64,000 nucleotides of DNA, from NCBI GenBank assembly GCA_019638085.1, contig JAHBUL010000007.1, forward strand, positions 124,001-188,000. Reading direction: 5' to 3'. This DNA is from Flavobacteriales bacterium. GTDB taxonomy: Bacteria; Bacteroidota; Bacteroidia; Flavobacteriales_F; PHOS-HE28. Position 1 is the stretch's first letter; the number at the start of each line of letters is the position of its first letter. The translations under genes were made by a program, and so were the position numbers. Shown here one piece after another: positions 18,855 to 51,925 of this stretch. A model generated the notes under the pieces. The model was given only the letters and a program-made list of their open reading frames with translations. It did not search any database and was not told where the DNA came from.

Positions 18855-18960
18855 GCCGGTCGGCATTGACCACGGAGGCCCAGGGGAAAAGAAAAACCGC
18901 AGCTGCCGCAGATGTTGACGCGTCGCGGGAGAAGAGGCTCATCGCCCCACAAATCCGTGT

Positions 18961-19170
18961 GCATCCGTGTGGATCCGTGGTTCCCTTTATGTGACCAGAC
19001 ACGCCGCAAGGCGCGTCGGGAACAAGCTCATCACCCCACATCCGTGTGCATCCGTGTGGATCCGTGGTTCCCTTTATGAGACCGGACACGCCGCAAGGCG
19101 TGTCGGGTACAGCCTCATCACCCCACATCCGTGTGGATCCGTGTCCCTCCGATATGTATCGGAGCGTGGT
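18961..19170. repeat. 87 bp tandem repeat with GCAA-loop hairpins
   Basis: The 378 bp gap before the dehydrogenase gene is filled by about two and a half copies of an 87 bp unit. GCATCCGTGTGGATCCGTGG occurs at 18961 and 19048, and a degenerate copy starts near 19129. Each unit includes a hairpin whose second copy is perfect: GACACGCC-GCAA-GGCGTGTC at 19085-19104. The first copy, at 18998-19017, has one mismatch. A third hairpin, CTCCGATA-TG-TATCGGAG, sits at 19147-19164. No coding potential is evident. Confidence 0.85.
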
Positions 19171-21639: not shown

Positions 21640-22096
21640 CTGTGTTCACAATGAGGTGCTCCCACCACCCTTCGACTTCGCTCAGGGCAGGCAGAGGCAC
21701 AGAGAACACAGAGGGGTGATCGAAGATCTGGAAACCGGTCCCTGAAGAAGTACCCTGAGGTTCTCCAAGGGTCTAAGGGCCGGTTTCCATCATTTGTTGC
21801 GGAAGTCGTCAACCCAACGATTCTCCGTGCCCTCCGCTCACTGTGGTGAAAATGGCTTTCCTCCGTGCCCTCCGTGTCCTCGCCCGGGCGTAGCCGCTTC
21901 GGCGTAGCACGGTCTGTGGTGATAAAAGCATTCTCCGTGCCCTCCGCCCCACTGTGGTGAAAAATGGCTTTCCTCCGTGCCCTCCGTGCCCTCGCCTGGG
22001 CGTAGCCGCTTCGGCGTAGCCCGGTCTGTGGTGATAAAAGCATTCTCCCTGCCCTCCGTGCCTCCGTGGTGAATTAAAGTGCCTCCGTGGTGAACC
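21640..22096. repeat. Intergenic repeat block, including a 112 bp tandem duplication
   Basis: This 469 bp gap is almost wholly repeats. It begins with a CTTCGACTTCGCTCAGGGCA/CACAGAG unit (21662-21716). A hairpin follows: arms GGAAACCGG (21730-21738) and CCGGTTTCC (21780-21788) around a CCCTGAGG...AAGGG core. Then two direct copies of a 112 bp unit lie at about 21842-22065, with GGCTTTCCTCCGTGCCCTCC at 21854 and 21966. Each copy holds GTAGCCGCTTCGGCGTAGC, a near-palindrome. No gene is visible. Confidence 0.85.
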
Positions 22097-23675: not shown

Positions 23676-24015
23676 ACCACCCTTCGACTCCTCGAACGCA
23701 GTGCGTTCTGCGGAGTATCGCTTCGCCATTGCTCAGGGCAGGCAGAGGCACAGAGCACACAGAGGGGGGCGGCTAACGCAAAGATTTCTTACCACAGAGG
23801 CACAGAGCACACAGAGAAGGGAGCGCGGCTAACGCAAAGCATTGCTCCGTGCCCTCCGTGCCTCTGTGGTAAAAAAGGCATTCCTCCGTGGTGATAAAAA
23901 GGCATTCCTCCGTGCCCTCCGCTCGCCCTGAGCGGAGTCGAAGGGTGCCTCTGTGGTGATAAAGGCATTCCTCCGTGCCCTCCGTGCCTCTGTGGTGAAA
24001 AAAGCTTTCCTCCGT
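23676..24015. repeat. Intergenic block of CTTCGACTCC and CACAGAG repeats
   Basis: The 393 bp gap holds a unit beginning CACCACCCTTCGACTCCTCG (23678) with the inner palindrome CGAACGCAGTGCGTTCTGCG, which recurs nearly unchanged at 25205-25295. It is followed by at least five CACAGAG / CTCCGTGCCCTCCGTG words in both orientations and a CGCCCTGAGCGGAGTCGAAG unit at 23923-23944. No gene is visible. Confidence 0.85.
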
Positions 24016-24485: not shown

Positions 24486-24740
24486 CACCACAGAGAAGGG
24501 GGCGGATCACTCGTAGGTTCTTCTCCACAGAGACACAGAGCACACAGAGAGAGGATGAAGATCGAGAAACCGGTCCCTGAGGGCCTTTACCTGAGGTACT
24601 CGAAGGGTCGAAGGGCCGGTTTCCCTCAATAGTTGCGGAATTCGTCAACCCAAAGCATTTCTCCGTGCCCTCTGTGTCTCTGTGGTGATAAAAGCATTTC
24701 TCCGTGCCCTCCGTGTCTCTGTGGTGATAAAGGTGCGGTG
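24486..24740. repeat. CACAGAG repeats around a long hairpin
   Basis: In the 304 bp gap, CACCACAGAGAAGG (24487) and CACAGAGACACAGAG (24526) precede a hairpin with arms GAAACCGG (24566-24573) and CCGGTTTC (24616-24623). Two CTCCGTGCCCTC words follow (24661-24735). The hairpin and the sequence after it match 21721-21830 over roughly 110 bp with scattered changes. No gene is visible. Confidence 0.85.
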
Positions 24741-25199: not shown

Positions 25200-25440
25200 T
25201 CTTCACCACCCATCGACTCCTCGAACGCAGTGCGTTCTGCGGAGTATCGCTTCGCCATTGCTCAGGGCAGGCAGAGGCACAGAGCACACAGAGAAGGGAG
25301 CGCGGCTAACGCAAGGTATTCTCCGTGTACTCCGTGTCTCTGTGGTAAAAAGGCATTCCTCCGTGGTGATAAAAAGGCATTCTCCGTGCCCTCCGTGTCT
25401 CTGTGGTGACAAAGGCATTCCTCCGTGGTGAATAAAGCAG
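25200..25440. repeat. Intergenic repeat block, near-copy of 23678-23840
   Basis: The first 90 bp (25205-25295) match 23679-23770 with about one mismatch, and GAAGGGAGCGCGGCTAACGC recurs at 25293 as at 23817. After it come four CTCCGTG...TCTCTGTGGTG words separated by GATAAAAAGGCATTC. No gene is visible in the 297 bp gap. Confidence 0.85.
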
Positions 25441-43537: not shown

Positions 43538-43570
43538 ACGGCGTAACGCGGGTGCAACACGGCGTAACGC
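43538..43570. promoter_or_regulatory. Operator-like direct repeats, 21 bp apart
   Basis: ACGGCGTAACGC occurs at 43538-43549 and again at 43559-43570, two helical turns apart, directly upstream of the -7 element of the DUF433 gene. A related GTTACAC word lies at 43523. This is a likely autoregulatory site for the toxin-antitoxin operon, and it may also affect the divergent mod gene. Confidence 0.6.
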
Positions 43571-43578
43571 TATCTTTG
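43571..43578 (+). promoter_or_regulatory. Putative -7 promoter element of the toxin-antitoxin operon
   Basis: TATCTTTG is a perfect TAnnTTTG match 12 bases before the ATG at 43591. It immediately follows the repeated GGCGTAACGC words and supports this start over the upstream one at 43492. Confidence 0.6.
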
Positions 43579-43590
43579 AAACTCCAGACG

Positions 43591-44271
43591 ATGGCAGCTT
43601 TCGCAACTACCCCTCAGCTCAATTCGGGCATCTACACCTATCCGGACATCGCCCGGATATTGGGGATCCCCTATGCCAAGGTCCACCGGTGGTTGGGCCA
43701 ATACTGGGAGGGTAAATTGGGGCAGGAGTACAGCCGCCGCTACAGTTGGGTGGTGGACAAGACCAAGGCGGTGAGCTTCCATACCCTGATGGAGCTGCGG
43801 GTCTTCTACAAGTTGAATTGTGCGGGCGTGAAACCGGCCGAGATCCTAGAGGCCCACAAGCAGCTGGTCGCGTTGACCGGCTCCAAATTCCCATTTGCCA
43901 CCCAGAGCATCTTGCAAGGCTTGCGGAGCGATGGCAAGCAAGTGCTTTTATACAAGAAGAAGGACGGCACCGTGCTTAGCCTGAATGGTACCAAGCAGTT
44001 CAACATGGGCTTCGTGTTGGACCTTATGCTGAAGATAGATTTCCAGGATGGCATGGTAAGCCGCTACTGGCCCATGGGCAAGGAGCACGCGATCATTTGC
44101 GATCCCAAACGCCAGTTCGGGCATCCGGTGGTGGGCAACACCAACATCTACCCGGAGTTGTTGGCCAGCATGCACCGTGCGGGGGACAGCATCAAGTTCC
44201 TGGCGGCCAATTACAACCTGAAGCTTAAGGAGGTCGAGGACTCCATCGCCTTCAGCAAACAGGCTGCATGA
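43591..44271 (+). CDS. DUF433 antitoxin-like protein with N-terminal DNA-binding region
   Basis: This 226-residue protein starts at MAAFATTPQLNSGIYTYPDIAR. Residues 12-35 (IYTYPDIARILGIPYAKVHRWL) look like a MerR/excisionase-type helix-turn-helix. The C-terminal 55 residues (RQFGHPVVGNTNIYPELLA, then a Y-x-L-x-x-x-E-V-x-x-S-I pattern) match DUF433. DUF433 proteins are antitoxin partners of DUF5615 PIN-like toxins. The stop overlaps the toxin start by 4 bp (ATGA). Its own promoter region holds 21 bp-spaced repeats it could bind. The pair is divergent from mod. Confidence 0.85.
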   Translation: MAAFATTPQLNSGIYTYPDIARILGIPYAKVHRWLGQYWEGKLGQEYSRRYSWVVDKTKAVSFHTLMELRVFYKLNCAGVKPAEILEAHKQLVALTGSKFPFATQSILQGLRSDGKQVLLYKKKDGTVLSLNGTKQFNMGFVLDLMLKIDFQDGMVSRYWPMGKEHAIICDPKRQFGHPVVGNTNIYPELLASMHRAGDSIKFLAANYNLKLKEVEDSIAFSKQAA

Positions 44272-44684
44272 AGATCTATCTGGACGAGAACATGTCGCCC
44301 AACCTGTGCCACGGACTGCAGGCATTCCAGAAGTCGCTGAACGCGGATCTGAAAACACCGGTGGAGATTCTTTCCATCGCGGAGCAGTTCGGGTTGGGCG
44401 CGAAGGATGAGGACTGGGTACCCTTGGTGGGCAAAGAGCAGGGCATGGCCATCACGTGGGACTTCAACCTGATGCGCACACGCCACCAACGCGAGCTATG
44501 CGAAAAGCACGGCGTGGGCTTGGTCATCATCCGCGCCCCGTCCAAGAAACTGGGCATGCGCTTTTGGGAGCAAGTGAAGCTGCTGGTGAAGCATTGGGAA
44601 GGCATCGTGAAGGTCGCTTCACACAAGAGCGGCCATTTCCACTATGAGCTGAAGCCGACTGCGGGGCTGAAGGAGTTGAAGTAA
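44268..44684 (+). CDS. DUF5615 PIN-like toxin
   Basis: The 138-residue protein begins MKIYLDENMSPNLCHGL, where D6-E7-N8 is the first acidic cluster of the PIN-like fold. D47-E48-D49 (GAKDEDWVPL) and D64 in AITWDFNLMRTRH give the other expected acidic residues. Proteins of this family are thought to be RNases neutralised by DUF433 partners. It overlaps its antitoxin gene by 4 bp and converges with the DUF4391 gene 20 bp downstream. Confidence 0.82.
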   Translation: MKIYLDENMSPNLCHGLQAFQKSLNADLKTPVEILSIAEQFGLGAKDEDWVPLVGKEQGMAITWDFNLMRTRHQRELCEKHGVGLVIIRAPSKKLGMRFWEQVKLLVKHWEGIVKVASHKSGHFHYELKPTAGLKELK

Positions 44685-44704: not shown

Positions 44705-45481
44705 TCAGTCCTGCTCCAAGCTTTTTCGTAGTGCCTCCACTTGTTTCCGGCGATGCTGGATGGCCATGTTCAGGTCCACTTGCTCACGCAGCGCTTGGCC
44801 CTTTTTCACTTTGGACTTCAGTGCATCTATCTCGGATTCCAGTGCATCGATGTGTTGCAAGGCTTCGAGGTCGCTTGTGCTGCGCGCCCGGGTGCGCTTG
44901 CCGAAGGTGCCCGTAAGCGCGGCAGCGCGGCATTGCACGATGGCCTGCATATAGCTGCCGTATAGCGTTCGTAGATCGGTCTTGTCCAGTTGTGCGAAGG
45001 CCAGCGCTTTGAAGAAGCCCTTGGCATTGGCATCGGCATACAGCAAGGACAATACGGGCGTACTGAGACTCGTTTCGATGGTCCGCTTGCTGGCATCGTT
45101 CAGGTTGATCCGTTTGATGCTTGCGTTCACCAGGTAGTTCTCGCTATCCTGTACGAAAAGCAGCAGTGGGTACGGCACATACTTCTGCACCAAGGCCACC
45201 ACCTTTTCCCCAACTTGATCCACGCGCCCTGAGGTGCTCGTAGTGCGCAATTCCACCGCGAACACCTGCACCTCCTCATAGCTGTGCGTATCCGTTACAT
45301 AGGCCGGAATGCTGGCCGCCTTGATGCTGGCCAACCATTCCATGTATTCGATGCCCTCGTTCAGCAACTTCTTTTCGGCGGCACTCAAGGTGAAGTGCTT
45401 CAGGAAGAATGCTTTGGTGAGCCGCTTCTGAAGGATGCAGCGCTCCGGTAACTGGAGTATTTCCAAGAAGTGCGGGCTCAC
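44705..45481 (-). CDS. DUF4391 domain protein
   Basis: The 258-residue protein starts with a GTG codon at 45481 that overlaps the stop of the helicase gene (GTGA, 4 bp). It has the DUF4391 pattern: an N-terminal LPERCILQKRLTKAFFLKH segment, a central EEVQVFAVELRTTSTSGRV strand pair and a C-terminal coiled coil (IDALESEIDALKSKVKKGQA). Function is unknown. The domain is commonly encoded beside SNF2-type helicases and DNA methyltransferases in restriction-like loci, as here, so it is probably a subunit of the helicase. Confidence 0.85.
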   Translation of the reverse strand: MSPHFLEILQLPERCILQKRLTKAFFLKHFTLSAAEKKLLNEGIEYMEWLASIKAASIPAYVTDTHSYEEVQVFAVELRTTSTSGRVDQVGEKVVALVQKYVPYPLLLFVQDSENYLVNASIKRINLNDASKRTIETSLSTPVLSLLYADANAKGFFKALAFAQLDKTDLRTLYGSYMQAIVQCRAAALTGTFGKRTRARSTSDLEALQHIDALESEIDALKSKVKKGQALREQVDLNMAIQHRRKQVEALRKSLEQD

Positions 45482-48400
45482 TTGATCACCAGGTATGCGA
45501 CCAGTTCCAGCGAACCCTCCTCGGCCAAGCTCTTGCTGAACAGAGTGGTGCCGCCGGGCGTGGCGAGGCTGTCCAGCCCTACTTCCTCCTGCACCTCCAC
45601 TACTTCGGCCATGGCCTTTTTCAGTAGTGCGCGGTACTTCTCCATCTTCTTTCCGGAGCCGGTCTCTTTGTCGAATGCGGCCAGGAGCTTGGGCAGCACC
45701 TTGTCATTCCCCATGCACAGTTTCCGGAAATAGTCCAGCGCTGTGCGGGTCTGCCGTGCGGTGAGCATTTCACTGCCATCGGCACTCAGGTAGACCAGGA
45801 AGTACGGATAGAGGATGTTGTTCCGCAGCCGCTCGGTAAAGGCGTTGCTCACATCCTTCAAGCAGAAGATCACACCCGGCTTGATGGACGCCAAGTTGCT
45901 CGGCACCACGGCAAAGGATGCCGGCGGAACGTTGTTCAGTGCCTCCAGTTCGGCATCGGTGCTTTTCTCCAGATCGATCTTGAAATCGTTGAACGTAAGG
46001 TCGGTGATGGAGATGTTCCCATGCACATCCTCCATGTCCATCACTTGGTCTTGTAGTTGCTTCAGCTGGCGCTTGCGGTACTCCAGGTCCTGCATTTCGC
46101 GGCTGTTCTGGCTGATGATGTTGTCCTCGCCGGTAGCGGATACATCCAGCATCACCATGCGGCCTTGCACGCGGGCCACCAGATCGATGAAGCTGTCCAG
46201 CTCCATACTGGGAAAAAAGTTCACCAATTGGATCTTCTCGTTCACCGAGCCGATGCGGTCGATGCGCCCGAAGCGCTGGATGATGCGCACCGGGTTCCAG
46301 TGGATGTCGTAGTTCACCAAGTAGTCGCAGTCCTGCAGGTTCTGCCCTTCGCTGATGCAATCGGTGCAGATCAGCACATCAATGGCGTTGGTCTCTTCCG
46401 GGAAGATCTCATCCCGCTTCTTGCTCAGCGGACTGAAGTGCGTGAGTATGCTGTTGAGGTCGGAACGGCAGCCGGGCATGTTGGTCTTGTTCACGCCGCC
46501 ACCGGTGACCAGCGCGCTGTAAAGGCCGAATTCTTCGGTGAGCCATTGCTCCAGCTCGCGGTGCAGGTAGGTTGCCGTATCCGCGAAAGCGGTGAACACG
46601 ATCACCTTCTTGTTGCCTGCGTTGATGGGGTCAGCGATCTTTTCCGTGATCAGCTCCTTCAGCTTGCGCAGTTTCGCATCCCGTGATACGTCGATCAACT
46701 TGATGCTGCTCATTAGCTTGGTGAGCTTGTCGCGGTCCAGCTTCAGGTCCTGCTTCCAGCGGATCAGGTCCAGGTCCGGGATCAGCACCTTGGTCTTGCC
46801 GCCCACCAAGAGGTCGCTCAGCTCGGTATCGTCCGGATCGATGTCGGCGATGTCCAGGTCCTGTTCCACCTCGCCCGTCTGGTGCGCCTCCAGTTGTTTC
46901 AGGTTCCTGTCGATCAGGTCCAACAGGTTCTGGATGGTGAGCTTAAAGGCGTGGATGGAGCTTTCCAAGCGCTTCAACAGGTTCACCCGCATCAAGTAGA
47001 TCAAGCTTTCCTCACGATCGGCCTGCTTGAAGACGGTGCCGCGTTCGGTCTCTATCGCATACTTGGCTTCGTAGGCATCCTTGCGGTCGGCCCGCACATA
47101 TTCCAGCGGCGTGTAGTAGGCCAAGGTCAACGTGCTGATCTCATCGTAGATCTCGCCGATGTCCTTGAACTTCCTATGTGTATCGATCTCCGGTTTCACG
47201 GTGATCGGCAGCAGCCGTTCCGGGAATTTCCCGATGTCGGCCATGTCGTAATACTTCTCGATGTGCTTGCGGGAACGCGCGATGGTGAGCATGTCGAGGA
47301 TCCGGAAGTAGGCCCCATCCAAATTGTCCAGCAGTTCCTGCACCTGCAGCTTGTCCGGATCGGTATCGCGATACCACTTGGTGAATTTGCGCTGGGCTTC
47401 GCGCATGATCTGGGTCACACTATCCAAGCCGTGCATATTGAACGCACGGTCATCCCCCTCGGTGATGAAGGCCACCTGGTTCTTCAGGTCGTTCATCTTG
47501 TTGTTCACCGGGGTGGCGGAAAGCATCAGGACCTTCGTGCGCACATTGGAGCGGATCACATCATTCATGAGCCGCTTGTAACGGGTCATGCCTTCACGCT
47601 TCTGTGGGTTGTTCCGAAAATTGTGGCTCTCATCGATCACCACCAGATCGTAGTTGCCCCAGTTGATCATCTCCAGATCGATGTCACCGCTCTTCCCCTT
47701 TTCACGGCTCAGGTCAGTGTGGTTCAGCACATCGTAATTGAAGCGGTCCTGCGCGAGGATGTTGCGCTTGTCATTGAGCTGGTAGATGGTCCAGTTCTCG
47801 CGAAGCTTCTTCGGTGCCAGCACCAGGATGCGGTCGTTCCGCAGTTGGTAGTACTTCATTACGGCCAGTGCCTCGAAGGTCTTCCCAAGGCCCACGCTGT
47901 CCGCAATGATGCAACCGTTATAGGTCTCTATCTTCTGGATTGCACCGATCACGGCATCCTTCTGGAAGTTATAGAGCATGTTCCAGATCTTCGTATCCTT
48001 CAAGCCCACCTTCATCAACTTCTCGTCCGCACGCTCACTGACGGTGGAGTATTGGAAGATCTCGCGCACACAATACTTGTAGATCGCTTCGCCGGAGTTG
48101 GGTTGGACCCCTTTCTGGAGTTCTTCAATGATCTGGTCGTTCAGCACCTCCCTGCTATTGTCCCAAGCATTGTTGAACAGCGCCAAATACTGTTCGCTCC
48201 CAGAAGTGAACGCATTGATCAATACCGGCTCCGTGGATGGTAATTCCCCGAGGGTCACACTGTTCAGTTCAAGCGGCGTCAGTGAAAAGGTCTCCAGTTT
48301 GCCGCCGGTTTCAAGAATGAGCACATGCTGATTGGCCACCGCACCCCTGCGGATGTCGAACTTGTCTTCCAGCAGACCGATGACCTGTCGAATGCGATAA

Positions 48401-48642
48401 GGTCTATCAAGCTCCAAGTTCAAAGGCGCTTCAGCCTCGCTCTGGATCAACTGGAACGGCAGTTCATCCGCCTTTCTGTTCAGCAAGACCTTAACGCGCT
48501 TCGCCTTCTTCAGCACATCAAGCAGGCCATACAGGGCAAACGCCGTGAAGTAGGAGCAGCTAAGGTGTACCACCGTGTTCTCCGTGACCGCTGCGCGGAT
48601 CTCTTCAATAAGCCGGGTCGTCTGGTTGTCAACTATGCGCAT
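45478..48642 (-). CDS. SNF2-type helicase with PLD-like N-terminal region
   Basis: This 1054-residue protein starts at MRIVDNQTTRLIEEIR (ATG at 48642). Residues 20-175 resemble a phospholipase D-like region (VVHLSCSYFTAFALYGLLDVL, KVLLNRKADE) without a clear HKD motif. The SF2 core has Walker A ADSVGLGKT (247-255), DESH in LVVIDESHNFRNN, LMLSATPVNN, and the C-terminal helicase lobe VIVFTAFADT and IQRFGRIDRIGS. Such proteins translocate on double-stranded DNA and occur in several defence and modification systems. It is coupled to DUF4391 by a 4 bp overlap. It may serve the mod-res locus next door or be a separate system. Confidence 0.88.
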   Translation of the reverse strand: MRIVDNQTTRLIEEIRAAVTENTVVHLSCSYFTAFALYGLLDVLKKAKRVKVLLNRKADELPFQLIQSEAEAPLNLELDRPYRIRQVIGLLEDKFDIRRGAVANQHVLILETGGKLETFSLTPLELNSVTLGELPSTEPVLINAFTSGSEQYLALFNNAWDNSREVLNDQIIEELQKGVQPNSGEAIYKYCVREIFQYSTVSERADEKLMKVGLKDTKIWNMLYNFQKDAVIGAIQKIETYNGCIIADSVGLGKTFEALAVMKYYQLRNDRILVLAPKKLRENWTIYQLNDKRNILAQDRFNYDVLNHTDLSREKGKSGDIDLEMINWGNYDLVVIDESHNFRNNPQKREGMTRYKRLMNDVIRSNVRTKVLMLSATPVNNKMNDLKNQVAFITEGDDRAFNMHGLDSVTQIMREAQRKFTKWYRDTDPDKLQVQELLDNLDGAYFRILDMLTIARSRKHIEKYYDMADIGKFPERLLPITVKPEIDTHRKFKDIGEIYDEISTLTLAYYTPLEYVRADRKDAYEAKYAIETERGTVFKQADREESLIYLMRVNLLKRLESSIHAFKLTIQNLLDLIDRNLKQLEAHQTGEVEQDLDIADIDPDDTELSDLLVGGKTKVLIPDLDLIRWKQDLKLDRDKLTKLMSSIKLIDVSRDAKLRKLKELITEKIADPINAGNKKVIVFTAFADTATYLHRELEQWLTEEFGLYSALVTGGGVNKTNMPGCRSDLNSILTHFSPLSKKRDEIFPEETNAIDVLICTDCISEGQNLQDCDYLVNYDIHWNPVRIIQRFGRIDRIGSVNEKIQLVNFFPSMELDSFIDLVARVQGRMVMLDVSATGEDNIISQNSREMQDLEYRKRQLKQLQDQVMDMEDVHGNISITDLTFNDFKIDLEKSTDAELEALNNVPPASFAVVPSNLASIKPGVIFCLKDVSNAFTERLRNNILYPYFLVYLSADGSEMLTARQTRTALDYFRKLCMGNDKVLPKLLAAFDKETGSGKKMEKYRALLKKAMAEVVEVQEEVGLDSLATPGGTTLFSKSLAEEGSLELVAYLVIK

Positions 48643-48684
48643 GAGAGGATGTTGCTGGTGGGCATTGCGGTGACAAAGTACCAA

Positions 48685-48892: not shown

Positions 48893-49534
48893 TCATCCCT
48901 TCGCCTCCAGTTCCACCGCCTCCAGCTCCGGTTCCTCCACCGCCTGGCAGAAGCGCAATACATCGGCGTGCTGCAGCTCGGGGTTCAGCCAATCGCTTTC
49001 GAAGGCGCGGGGGATGATGACGGGCTGGCGCTTGCGGCTGTTGTGGATGGTGGCCATCAGCGTTTGGGCCGGGCGGGTGAGCACAGTATAGGTATCGTCC
49101 TCATAGAGCCCGCCGAGGGAGAAGAGGGGCTCGTTGTGGTAGGTGATCCGGTAGGGCACCTTGTCCGGTGTCTTCCGGCCTTCCACCGGGCGGTGCTGCC
49201 ACTCGAAGAAGCTGGTGACGGGGATGAGGCAGCGGCGGCCCTTGGCCATGGCATCGCGGAAGGAGCGCTTTTCGTGCGCCTCCTCGCTCACGGCGTTGAA
49301 GGTGGGGCTGCGCTTGAGGAATTCCTTGGGGTCCTTCACCCAGAAGGGGAGCAGGCCCCATTGTTTCCAGGTGAACTGCTCGGGCTGCTCGGTGGTGATC
49401 ACCGGCCACCACGGGAGGGCGAAGGCGCTGGTGCGCGGGAAGGGGAGCTGGCCGCGGGTCTCTTCGAGCAGCTGGCGGTGGTAGCGTTTTTCGAGGGCAG
49501 CTACGTCGGTGTCCAGGGCGGTGTAGTAGCACAT
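48893..49534 (-). CDS. SRAP (SOS response-associated peptidase, YedK/HMCES-like)
   Basis: This 213-residue protein starts at MCYYTALDTD, exposing the catalytic Cys2 after Met removal. The other active-site residues are visible: N80 in SPTFNAVSEEA, E111 in SFFEWQH, and the histidine in ATIHNSRKRQPVII. SRAP proteins form a covalent thiazolidine link with abasic sites in single-stranded DNA and so shield them from strand breakage. The longer reading to 49642 would bury Cys2 and includes the GAGTC repeats. The 21 bp palindrome array begins about 250 bp upstream of this start. Confidence 0.93.
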   Translation of the reverse strand: MCYYTALDTDVAALEKRYHRQLLEETRGQLPFPRTSAFALPWWPVITTEQPEQFTWKQWGLLPFWVKDPKEFLKRSPTFNAVSEEAHEKRSFRDAMAKGRRCLIPVTSFFEWQHRPVEGRKTPDKVPYRITYHNEPLFSLGGLYEDDTYTVLTRPAQTLMATIHNSRKRQPVIIPRAFESDWLNPELQHADVLRFCQAVEEPELEAVELEAKG

Positions 49535-49565: not shown

Positions 49566-49625
49566 TCGGGAGTCCTGAGTCTTGAGTCCTGAGTCGGGAG
49601 TCGGGAGTCGGGAGTCTGAGTCTCG
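49566..49625. repeat. GAGTC quasi-tandem repeat
   Basis: About seven imperfect copies of a seven-base GAGTCSK word run through this stretch, upstream of the SRAP gene. A second tract of the same word lies at 51165-51210. Confidence 0.75.
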
Positions 49626-49785
49626 TTGGCAAATGAATTCAATCGGGTGATCCGGAAAGCCTAAGCGTATCGTGAGGCTGGCCTTCGGCCCCCACGGATA
49701 AGGCTGCTTTTTAGGTGGCCTATATATATAAGGTATAAAACATCCATTCAGGCACGAGTGGAGCACGGCAGGTTCTTCCCTGCGA

Positions 49786-50172
49786 GACCTTACGCGTGAA
49801 ACGTAAGACCTTACGGATGAAACGTAAGACCTTACGAATGAAGTGTAAGACCTTACGGATGAAGTGTAAGACCTTACGGATGAAGTGTAAGACCTTACGG
49901 ATGAAACGTAAAACCTTACGAATGAAACGTAAGACCTTACGAATGAAACGTAAGACCTTACGAATGAAACGTAAGACCTTACGGATGAAACGTAAGACCT
50001 TACGGATGAAACGTAAGACCTTACGGATGAAACGTAAGACCTTACGAATGAAACGTAAAACCTTAGGGATGAAACGTAAAACCTTACGCGTGAGCCGTAA
50101 GACCTTACGGATGAAACGTAAAACCTTACGCGTGAGCCGTAAGACCTTACGCGTGAGGCGTAAACCTTTACA
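49786..50172. repeat. 19-copy, 21 bp tandem array of palindromic units
   Basis: GACCTTAC (or AACCTTAC) recurs at exactly 21 bp steps from 49786 to 50164: 49786, 49807, 49828 and so on to 50143, with a worn last copy. Each unit holds the palindrome CGTAAG-AC-CTTACG or a close variant such as TGTAAG-AC-CTTACG. The linker varies among GGATGAAA, GAATGAAA, GGATGAAG and GCGTGAGC. Because 21 is divisible by three, all frames stay open. The plus strand would read MKRKTLR heptads and the minus strand RKVLRFI heptads, so apparent ORFs across it are weak evidence for a gene. The array lies between the divergent SRAP and fibronectin III genes. Twenty-one bases are two helical turns, so all sites face the same way. 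Confidence 0.95.
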
Positions 50173-50327
50173 GGAGCCCCAAAAGGCCATTTGCCTTTTA
50201 CCCTGTTGGCATGGTTCCGGACCCTGACCAAGGCCCCAAAAAGCCGGGTTCCAGGATCCAAGGTGAAAAAGGATGAAATATCCGGCTCGTCAATAACCAG
50301 CGTCCAGCACGTGTTTCAAGCGGTATT

Positions 50328-50394
50328 TCCACTGATCAGTGGATACCCGGCTCCACTATCCATTATCAACTTTATGTCACCTTTCGATAGTGGA
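50328..50394. promoter_or_regulatory. Palindromic operator-like region upstream of the fibronectin III gene
   Basis: A perfect 16 bp palindrome TCCACTGATCAGTGGA lies at 50328-50343. A second inverted pair, TCCACTATC (50352-50360) and GATAGTGGA (50386-50394), shares the TCCACT/AGTGGA half-sites. A CACCTTTC element (50378-50385), near the -7 consensus, sits inside the second pair, as expected for a repressor site overlapping a promoter. Confidence 0.55.
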
Positions 50395-50446
50395 TCACGG
50401 ATAAGGGGTTGTGCCACAAAACGAACGGCACTAAAACAAAAGCACC

Positions 50447-51076
50447 ATGAAAAAGGTGGAAAAATTGAAAGTAGGCCTCGAACGCCTCACCCCAACGGCC
50501 CTGGTGGAAAAGGGACGGAACCACATTGAAAGCTGCACGGCCAATCCGGACCTGACGCTGCCGCCGGACTTACTGAAGGAACTGGGCGATGCCTGCGACG
50601 CGCTGGAAGCGGCCAACATCACCGCCCGTGAGAACGGCGGGAAGTTGGATACGCGGCGCCGTGATGCAAGGGCCTTGGAGGTCCGGGAGATCATCATATC
50701 CTTGGCGGGCTACGTAACGGCCCAGAGCAAAGGCGATGGTGAGAAGATCACCGCCACCGGCTTCGAGGTCTGGAAGGCCCGGGAACGAGTAGGTGTACTG
50801 GATGCCCCCGAGAACTTCCGCGCCGAGCGTGGCAAGTATCGCGGAGACGTGTCGCTCCGCTGGGGTGCCAAGCGTGGGCGCACCATCTACACCCTGCAGA
50901 TGAACTCCGGCAACCCGGATCGGGAGGAGGACTGGAAGTGGGCCGCGAGTACCACGCGGAACTTCCACACCCTCACCGGTCTGGAGCCCGACAAGCAATA
51001 CTACTTCCGTGTCCGCGCCAACAGTGCGGCCGGTGCAGGGAAGTTGAGCGAGGTCACCTCCAGCAAGGCAGCTTGA
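50447..51076 (+). CDS. Fibronectin type III domain protein
   Basis: The 209-residue protein begins MKKVEKLKVGLERLTPTALV without a signal peptide, so it is probably cytoplasmic. Residues 1-110 are helical (DLLKELGDACDALEAANITA, ALEVREIIISLAGYVTAQS). Residues 115-209 form one fibronectin III domain: LDAPENFRAERGKYRGDVSL, the core tryptophan in LRWGAKRG, and LEPDKQYYFRVRANSAAGAG. Proteins of this build are common in Bacteroidota and their role is unknown. The promoter region carries nested palindromes and lies next to the 21 bp array. Confidence 0.8.
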   Translation: MKKVEKLKVGLERLTPTALVEKGRNHIESCTANPDLTLPPDLLKELGDACDALEAANITARENGGKLDTRRRDARALEVREIIISLAGYVTAQSKGDGEKITATGFEVWKARERVGVLDAPENFRAERGKYRGDVSLRWGAKRGRTIYTLQMNSGNPDREEDWKWAASTTRNFHTLTGLEPDKQYYFRVRANSAAGAGKLSEVTSSKAA

Positions 51077-51164: not shown

Positions 51165-51925
51165 TTTTGAGTCTTGAGTCTTGAGTCTATGAGTCGTGAG
51201 TCTTGAGCCTGTCCAGTCCTAGAGGCACTCGTGAACACGGTCCCTGAGGAACTCGTGAACACGGTCCCTGAGGCAGTACCCTGAGGTTCTCGAAGGGTCG
51301 AAGGGCCGTGTTCACATCCAATAAATAACCGTGAGCGAACCATCGAAGGAAACCGGGGCTTCGAGTGCCTCAGTGGTCCCTGAGGAACTCGAAGGGCCAC
51401 CGGTTTCCAGATCGTCAACCATCTCTCTGTGCCTCCTACCCGGAGCGAAGCGAAGGGTACCTCTGTGGTTGACCTAAGGAATTCTCCGTGTCCTCCGTGT
51501 CTCTGCCTGCCCTGAGCGAAGTCGAAGGGTGGTGAAAAACCCCACCTCCGTGCCTCCCACCCGAAGCGAAGCGAAGGGTACCTCCGTGGTGGACCAAAGG
51601 AAATCTCTGTGCCCTCCGTGTCTCTGTGGTGAAAAACCTTCACCTCCGTGCCTCCCACCCGAAGCGAAGCGAAGGGTACCTCTGTGGTAGACCAAAGGAA
51701 CTCTCTGTGCCCTCCGTGCCTCTGTGGTGAAAAACTCTTCCATGAGCAGCGTCGAAAAGTGGTGAGTAAGTCCCCTTCCCCTACACAAAAGGCCCGCCCG
51801 CTGACAAGATCGCTTCGGCAGACCACCCCCTTCGGGCTGCGGGCCACCTCGCAATGACGTCACGTGAGTTGCGCCACCCACGACCCTCTCTGTGCTCTCT
51901 GTGCCTCTGTGGTGAAAATAAAACC
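51165..51925. repeat. Intergenic mosaic of five short-repeat families
   Basis: The 862 bp gap holds no gene. In order it contains: GAGTC words (51165-51210); a hairpin with two left arms GTGAACACGG (51231 and 51255) and one right arm CCGTGTTCAC (51306-51315); a hairpin with arms GGAAACCGG (51348-51356) and CCGGTTTCC (51400-51408); and four CTCCGTG...TCTCTGTGGTG units mixed with CCCGAAGCGAAGCGAAGGG and CTGCCCTGAGCGAAGTCG (51420-51740). An AAGGCCCGCC...TCGCAATGACG unit (51790-51856) and a last CACAGAG-type word at 51888-51914 end the block. Confidence 0.85.

Follow-up and report, generated by a model that had tools for sequence, protein, structure and literature searches.

Upstream tandem arrays with a period of about two helical turns accompany genes of a fibronectin type III protein family in two bacterial phyla

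Across two bacterial phyla, genes of one protein family are paired with arrays of short tandem repeats that lie upstream of most of the relatives examined, differ in their letters, and keep a spacing of 20–22 bases. Within the family the sequence of the repeat unit decays while its period persists. The pairing of array and gene, the 20–22-bp period and how well it fits the protein tree, the enrichment of dyad symmetry, and the decay of the unit sequence were all computed directly. The reading that we tentatively prefer, at somewhat less than an even chance, is that the array is a cis-acting site where the encoded protein, or a partner linked with it, would line up in a regular row. Sequence is the usual means of recognizing repeat arrays. 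In this case it does not survive within a genus, but spacing and symmetry stay with the gene in two phyla, so that searches based on sequence similarity miss the class. More than 100 natural pairs of array and protein, with periods of 20, 21, and 22 bp, are thus available for asking how a protein reads DNA geometry. The pairing also gives context, and not yet function, to a family named in databases only after its fibronectin type III (fn3) domain. The genomes used are public assemblies, many of them draft, and a search of the open-access literature returned no description of the module.

The repeat array and its surroundings

The window is a stretch of 64,000 nucleotides from the genome of a Flavobacteriales bacterium, and the array lies in a 912-bp gap with the SRAP gene (minus strand) and a 209-aa gene (plus strand) divergent on either side, the arrangement described in the original prediction (Table 1). 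Tandem Repeats Finder reports a period of 21, 17.5 copies, 90% matches, and 0 indels at 49785–50151, in keeping with the strict 21-bp periodicity noted earlier, and the copies abut head to tail. Nineteen copies had been counted from position 49786. The 21-bp array is real and ends at 50172, and it consists of 18 full copies and a remnant, starting at 49785. The 14-bp near-palindrome has two 6-bp arms about AC. It had been proposed that the palindrome is kept while the linker drifts, and this is what is found: of 30 differences from the consensus over the 18 copies, 22 fall in the 7-bp linker and 8 in the 14-bp palindrome (binomial p = 9e-6, with copies treated as independent, which they are not). 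Compared with its own reverse complement, the unit gives z 2.9 (p 0.007). There are no unique spacers between the repeats, and hence the array does not have the form of a CRISPR array.

Table 1. Coordinates of the array, its genes, and their parts in the window.
Feature	Position	Strand	Description
Full in-register 21-bp copies (n=18)	49785..50162	.	Unit AGACCTTACGGATGAAACGTA, each with near-palindrome CGTAAG-AC-CTTACG
Degenerate 19th copy, array end	50163..50172	.	Segment end is 275 bp before ATG
SRAP gene (SOS response associated peptidase)	48893..49534	-	ATG at 49534; divergent neighbour
Leader, array to ATG	50173..50446	+	Family median array-to-ATG gap 241 bp
Small hairpin GTGCC...GGCAC	50411..50431	+	Near start codon; comparable hairpin in several close relatives
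Array-associated family A gene	50447..51076	+	209-aa protein: predicted three-helix N-domain and C-terminal fn3
N-terminal domain, about residues 1-110	50447..50776	+	Predicted helices 16-31, 42-63, 66-94
Fibronectin type III domain, residues 119-205	50801..51061	+	Pfam fn3 E 3.2e-9

The unit pattern is private to the locus. When up to two mismatches are allowed, it has 15 matches in its own 3.99-Mb genome, all within the array, and none in 34 other genomes of the genus, and one of 23 other genomes of the taxonomic class carries a single two-mismatch match. Because the pattern is confined to the array in its own genome, the array would act only in cis.

The SRAP gene is probably outside the module. 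None of the 56 SRAP gene flanks taken from the genus (28 loci, leaving out the window and one locus with a gene of the array-associated family) has an array of the 20–22- or 40–44-bp class. A Pfam scan of the array-associated gene, together with six ORFs around it in the window, identified fn3, SRAP, SNF2-type helicase, DUF4391, and DUF433/HTH, with two ORFs matchless. No ParA, ParM, or other motor gene and no Rep gene was seen among these ORFs, and the partition, silencer, and iteron roles offered in the original prediction stay conjectural.

Other repeats and gene pairs occur nearby. GAGTC-type short tandem repeats with units of 7, 14, or 15 bp flank the module at 49566–49622 and 51167–51207, and repeats resembling the first of these stretches are matched in 13 of 45 genomes of the genus, the window's own included. 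Tandem copies of the kind ‘CCTCCGTG...GTGGTGA’ are found in the window at 18937–19144, 21820–22073, 23861–23914, 24652–24731, 25342–25388, and 51529–51740. At 44705–48684 (minus strand) and 43570–44684 (plus strand), a DUF4391 gene adjoins one for an SNF2-type helicase, and a DUF433/HTH gene is followed by a small ORF; the latter two may, as a guess, be a toxin–antitoxin pair.

The protein family

The array-associated gene belongs to what we call family A, whose proteins are listed in databases as ‘fibronectin type III domain-containing protein’ or ‘hypothetical protein’. Within its own genome the gene finds 7 matches, and 33 of 45 genomes of the genus have matches, up to 19 per genome and some of them partial; the one family member tried gave no plasmid match. 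AlphaFold2 models the full window protein with a pLDDT of 92.4 and the N-domain alone with 89.3. The PDB matches listed for the full model lie within the fn3 part, and a Foldseek search of the PDB with the N-domain alone gave a best E of 0.55, with only bundle-like matches on a second look. Family libraries returned weak single-member matches to the N-domain and no confident family.

The one nucleic-acid hint for the N-domain comes from a weak PHROG match to a single strand annealing protein (residues 32–86, E 0.033). The N-domain of the window protein has a net charge of 0, and the average over 153 family proteins is +1.9, so that the composition does not call for DNA binding. Pfam matches to ribbon-helix-helix proteins were found in 0 of 29 family members, a missing fold match that does not exclude this fold, and matches to Rep or to ToxN/CptN/TenpN likewise in 0 of 29.

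Arrays upstream of family A genes

Loci were picked by protein similarity, and their upstream DNA was viewed only afterwards. The first loci inspected had upstream arrays of 21 or 22 bp with differing letters. Sixty further regions from the genus and 40 from the taxonomic class were taken from match lists, with part of the listed matches included. From 179 loci came 158 distinct genes that match in the N-domain (the window gene is one of them), and 152 of these have at least 450 bp upstream. These were scanned at lags of 9–60 with a threshold score of 18, which 121 of the 152 reach.

An upstream array peaking at a lag of 20–22 or 40–44 precedes 117 of the 152 distinct genes, including that of the window. 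The other 35 comprise 31 that score below 18 and 4 that peak elsewhere. The unit is 21 bp long in 91 of the 117 arrays, 22 bp in 19, 20 bp in 3, 20.5 bp in 2, and 21.5 bp in 2. Across the family, the GC content of the arrays spans about 0.2 to 0.7. Such arrays are rare in the controls: among 58 loci with at least 450 bp downstream, 3 downstream flanks peak in this class and 9 at any lag, and among 320 evenly placed 1200-bp tiles of one genome of the genus, 1 peaks in the class and 9 at any lag.

Two different 21/22-bp units alternate in 45 arrays (for example L034, L038, L109, and L154), in which the period of 42 or 44 bp is much stronger than that of one unit; as a guess, the alternating units may be half-sites of one larger symmetric site.

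Inheritance of the period and loss of the letters

Similarity between units was compared with the 95th percentile for random pairs, 0.47. Among the 60 most similar pairs of proteins, all 12 measured pairs with a protein identity of at least 78% have units with a similarity of 0.50–0.77; at 64–77% identity, 15 of 34 measured pairs lie above 0.47 and the other 19 fail to. For example, the window gene and a paralogue with 70% identity have units with a similarity of 0.42, below this value. The letters thus decay within the family while the period is kept.

The period follows the protein. On a tree of 152 proteins, 117 of them with measured arrays, the 21 genes in the 22/21.5-bp class require 2 changes, compared with a mean of 19.7 and a minimum of 16 in 200 label shuffles; the tree was quickly made, and near-identical copies favour clustering of any kind. 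When array-less genes are counted as not belonging to the 22-bp class, 6 changes are required against a shuffled mean of 20.0. In one clade of 23 genes, arrays were measured for 19; the period is 22 bp in 18 of these and 21.5 bp in the other. The remaining two genes of the class are a Verrucomicrobial pair; further Verrucomicrobial arrays, outside that tree, are mixed, from 21 to 22 bp.

Copy number changes at a fixed period, as the original prediction expected of a protein-binding array: the near-identical orthologues L188/L189 and L042/L173, all with 22-bp arrays, differ in array length (421 versus at least 950 bp, and 407 versus 735 bp, in draft assemblies). It had also been stated that a spacing in related genomes other than a multiple of 21 bp would refute the idea. 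Taken literally, this is what 26 of the 117 arrays have. Such spacings, however, weigh on the coding idea and not on that of a row of sites, and the period follows the protein tree.

The pairing extends to a second phylum. Family members with arrays of 43 and 22 bp were found in Verrucomicrobiia and Verrucomicrobiaceae MAGs at 25–29% identity. These two genomes gave 11 matches, 3 of which cover only fn3 and were left out; 7 of the 8 that include the N-domain have arrays, at lags of 21, 42, 43, or 44, and the eighth scores 13 at lag 42, below the threshold. The 8 include the two first-found members again, and two of them share their protein start and array unit.

Fast turnover of units between loci, together with the homogenized copies inside the window array, could also be expected if the arrays were functionless by-products of a local mutational process, such as slippage at a site of replication pausing close to these genes. 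We consider this very unlikely, since the two-turn period is nearly constant in two phyla and over the whole range of GC content, and since slippage would not lead one to expect that the period is inherited with the protein or that symmetry is enriched.

Symmetry, strand, and coding

When each unit was compared with its own reverse complement, 116 arrays gave a mean z of 1.93; 60 had p < 0.05, 33 had p < 0.01, and 10 had z < 0. Predicted folding was stronger than in column-shuffled arrays, with a mean z of −1.6 on both strands of 115 arrays, a null that may inflate z. The sense strand folds lower in 59 of the 115 arrays and thus shows no strand preference. Selection on RNA structure should favour G–T pairs on one strand, and the non-matching dyad pairs comprise 1342 G–T and 1383 A–C. 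With no bias between G–T and A–C and none in folding between strands, the dyad symmetry fits a property of double-stranded DNA.

These counts bear on the idea that transcription of the array yields an RNA of repeated hairpins to which the protein binds, as with the RNA antitoxin of type III toxin–antitoxin systems. Upstream arrays, locus-specific sequences, and self-complementary units would all suit such an RNA, and type III loci are described as also having upstream tandem repeats of widely varying sequence and length (PMC4627078). It nevertheless appears improbable given the balanced strands, and further evidence points the same way. A simple scan of the window found no terminator-like site on the plus strand at 50173–50446, between array and gene; Rfam gave nothing at E ≤ 1 for 15 loci; and no ToxN-type Pfam match was obtained in 29 members.

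The other product that the array might give is a basic heptad-repeat peptide (MKRKTLR or RKVLRFI). Both strands are open across the window array. Of the 30 differences, 17 are synonymous when the plus strand is read as TLRMKRK and 15 when the minus strand is read as RFIRKVL, about half in each case, so that within the window codon evidence does not decide, as had been noted. In 91 consensus units, however, open frames were not in significant excess over dinucleotide-preserving shuffles (sense 1.96 versus 1.88, antisense 2.11 versus 2.04). A cruder column-shuffle null did give an excess, 2.08 versus 1.44, which we attribute to dinucleotide make-up. With the periods of 20, 20.5, 21.5, or 22 bp in 26 of 117 arrays added to this, a coding role is disfavoured, and the heptad peptide seems scarcely credible.

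A second gene family

The single class array found among 320 control tiles precedes a gene of 227 aa that belongs to a second family, A3, which is not detectably related to family A (hhalign probability 1.5%). Upstream arrays of 21 or 42 bp were found in 26 of 42 distinct A3 genes (those with at least 450 bp; one array was entered for two tandem genes). The A3 proteins look helical by sequence, and the two long members scanned have a C-terminal carboxypeptidase-regulatory-like domain (CarboxypepD_reg). The A3 loci are L268:18216–18794 and L279–L325. As this unrelated family also has such arrays, the binder is possibly a third factor, and the type of array may serve several families.

Class arrays are not wholly confined to genes of families A and A3. 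A weak stretch of 21-bp tandem repeats (score 27) occurs in control tile L266, which peaks at lag 15, and the right SRAP flank of L066, in a genome with no family A match, has an array with an 88-bp period (4 x 22). Separately, arrays of 39–41 bp of a GGGCCG/CGGCCC type, unlike the 21-bp arrays, occur downstream or in the flank of the family gene at L029 and L045.

Arrays before two unrelated gene families would also fit a variable-number tandem repeat that is linked to the promoter and lacks a dedicated partner. Phased DNA of two turns per unit would then bend or position the promoter region, and expression would be tuned through copy number, with the rotational phase preserved. Such a repeat would account for a period near 21 bp, the decay of the sequence, the placement upstream of a gene, and the different array lengths of near-identical orthologues. 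It gives no reason for the enriched dyad symmetry, for the concentration of the 22-bp period in certain protein clades, or for the keeping of arrays with family A in two phyla, and we judge it unlikely, if less so than a hairpin RNA.

A proposed mechanism and its nearest analogies

From these properties we infer binding, oligomerization, and regulation, as well as the identity of the binder. In the preferred reading of a cis-acting assembly site, the module would comprise an upstream tandem array, with about two helical turns per unit, and a gene for a protein with a predicted helical domain and fn3. A dimeric subunit would sit on each unit of 21–22 bp, with all subunits on one face of the helix, and neighbouring subunits would bind cooperatively along the array. 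Since the letters change while period and symmetry last, what the binder reads would be geometry, or else its sequence preference would shift quickly. The resulting nucleoprotein row, ending a median of 241 bp upstream of the ATG, would most simply switch or buffer transcription of its own gene, and copy number would set a tunable length of the row. The array would thus probably control its own downstream gene.

The multimeric DNA-binding array of the original prediction is partly supported: a period of helical-turn length and a dyad do outlast the sequence, which fits reading at the level of DNA. The encoded protein is a candidate binder, and a second family, A3, has similar arrays. A broader suggestion, which we regard as possible but rather doubtful, is that the arrays form a widespread, undescribed class of bacterial chromosomal element, a centromere-like or silencer-like nucleoprotein platform built by one small protein family on private arrays with free letters, whose geometry (two helical turns and a dyad per unit) is inherited with the protein; some genomes would have many members, all with repeats of their own. 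Against the preferred assembly site stand the 35 of 152 genes in which an array is missing at the threshold, dyad symmetry that is significant in about half of the arrays, and an N-domain without a recognized DNA-binding fold. Sequence-specific binding is awkward as well, because the unit sequence decays faster than the protein.

The nearest working analogy to the proposed assembly is ParR on parC, the centromere of plasmid partition. The parC repeats measure 10, 11, 17, or 20 bp, depending on the system, and lie upstream of the genes; their sequence and spacing vary between families, and the ParR proteins tested bound their cognate parC (PMC9426499, PMC5016525). Family A shares with ParMRC (type II) and type Ib partition systems the tandem repeats upstream of the gene or genes. 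It differs in being chromosomal, with a single gene and no motor NTPase (ParM/ParA) among the neighbours scanned in the window, and in having a predicted helical bundle and fn3 where ParR has a ribbon-helix-helix and a motor-binding tail. Because the motor gene is missing in the window, the module is not placed within ParMRC.

Other known systems share single features with family A. Plasmid iterons are direct repeats about two helical turns apart beside the gene of their binding protein. The family A arrays have this layout, direct repeats of about two turns next to a gene, but differ from iteron origins in that they are chromosomal, that their gene has no Rep match by Pfam, and that one genome can have up to 19 family matches. 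REP/BIME elements are short palindromic extragenic repeats; the window unit, by contrast, is confined in its genome to one tandem array, and the units of distant loci differ in sequence, so that this is not a dispersed family. The type III toxin–antitoxin systems ToxIN, CptIN, and TenpIN have tandem repeats upstream of a gene, as in family A, and from one locus to another these vary widely in both sequence and length (PMC4627078). Family A departs from them in the lack of an RNA strand signature, of a terminator-like site in the window, and of a match to a ToxN-type protein.

Leaders of family A genes

Between array and start codon, some leaders have hairpins of their own. The leaders of L128, L129, L130, and L136, from one genome group, share two strongly conserved hairpins, CCCGCACAAAGCGGG ... 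CCGGGCGCATCCCGG, with changes in L136 and no Rfam match. More generally, a hairpin immediately before the start codon, with an A-rich stretch after it, recurs among the leaders, whose folding z values lie below −1 in 57 of 154 and above +1 in 10. Values below −2 are found in 25 of 154 leaders and in 18 of 153 adjoining upstream segments, a modest enrichment.
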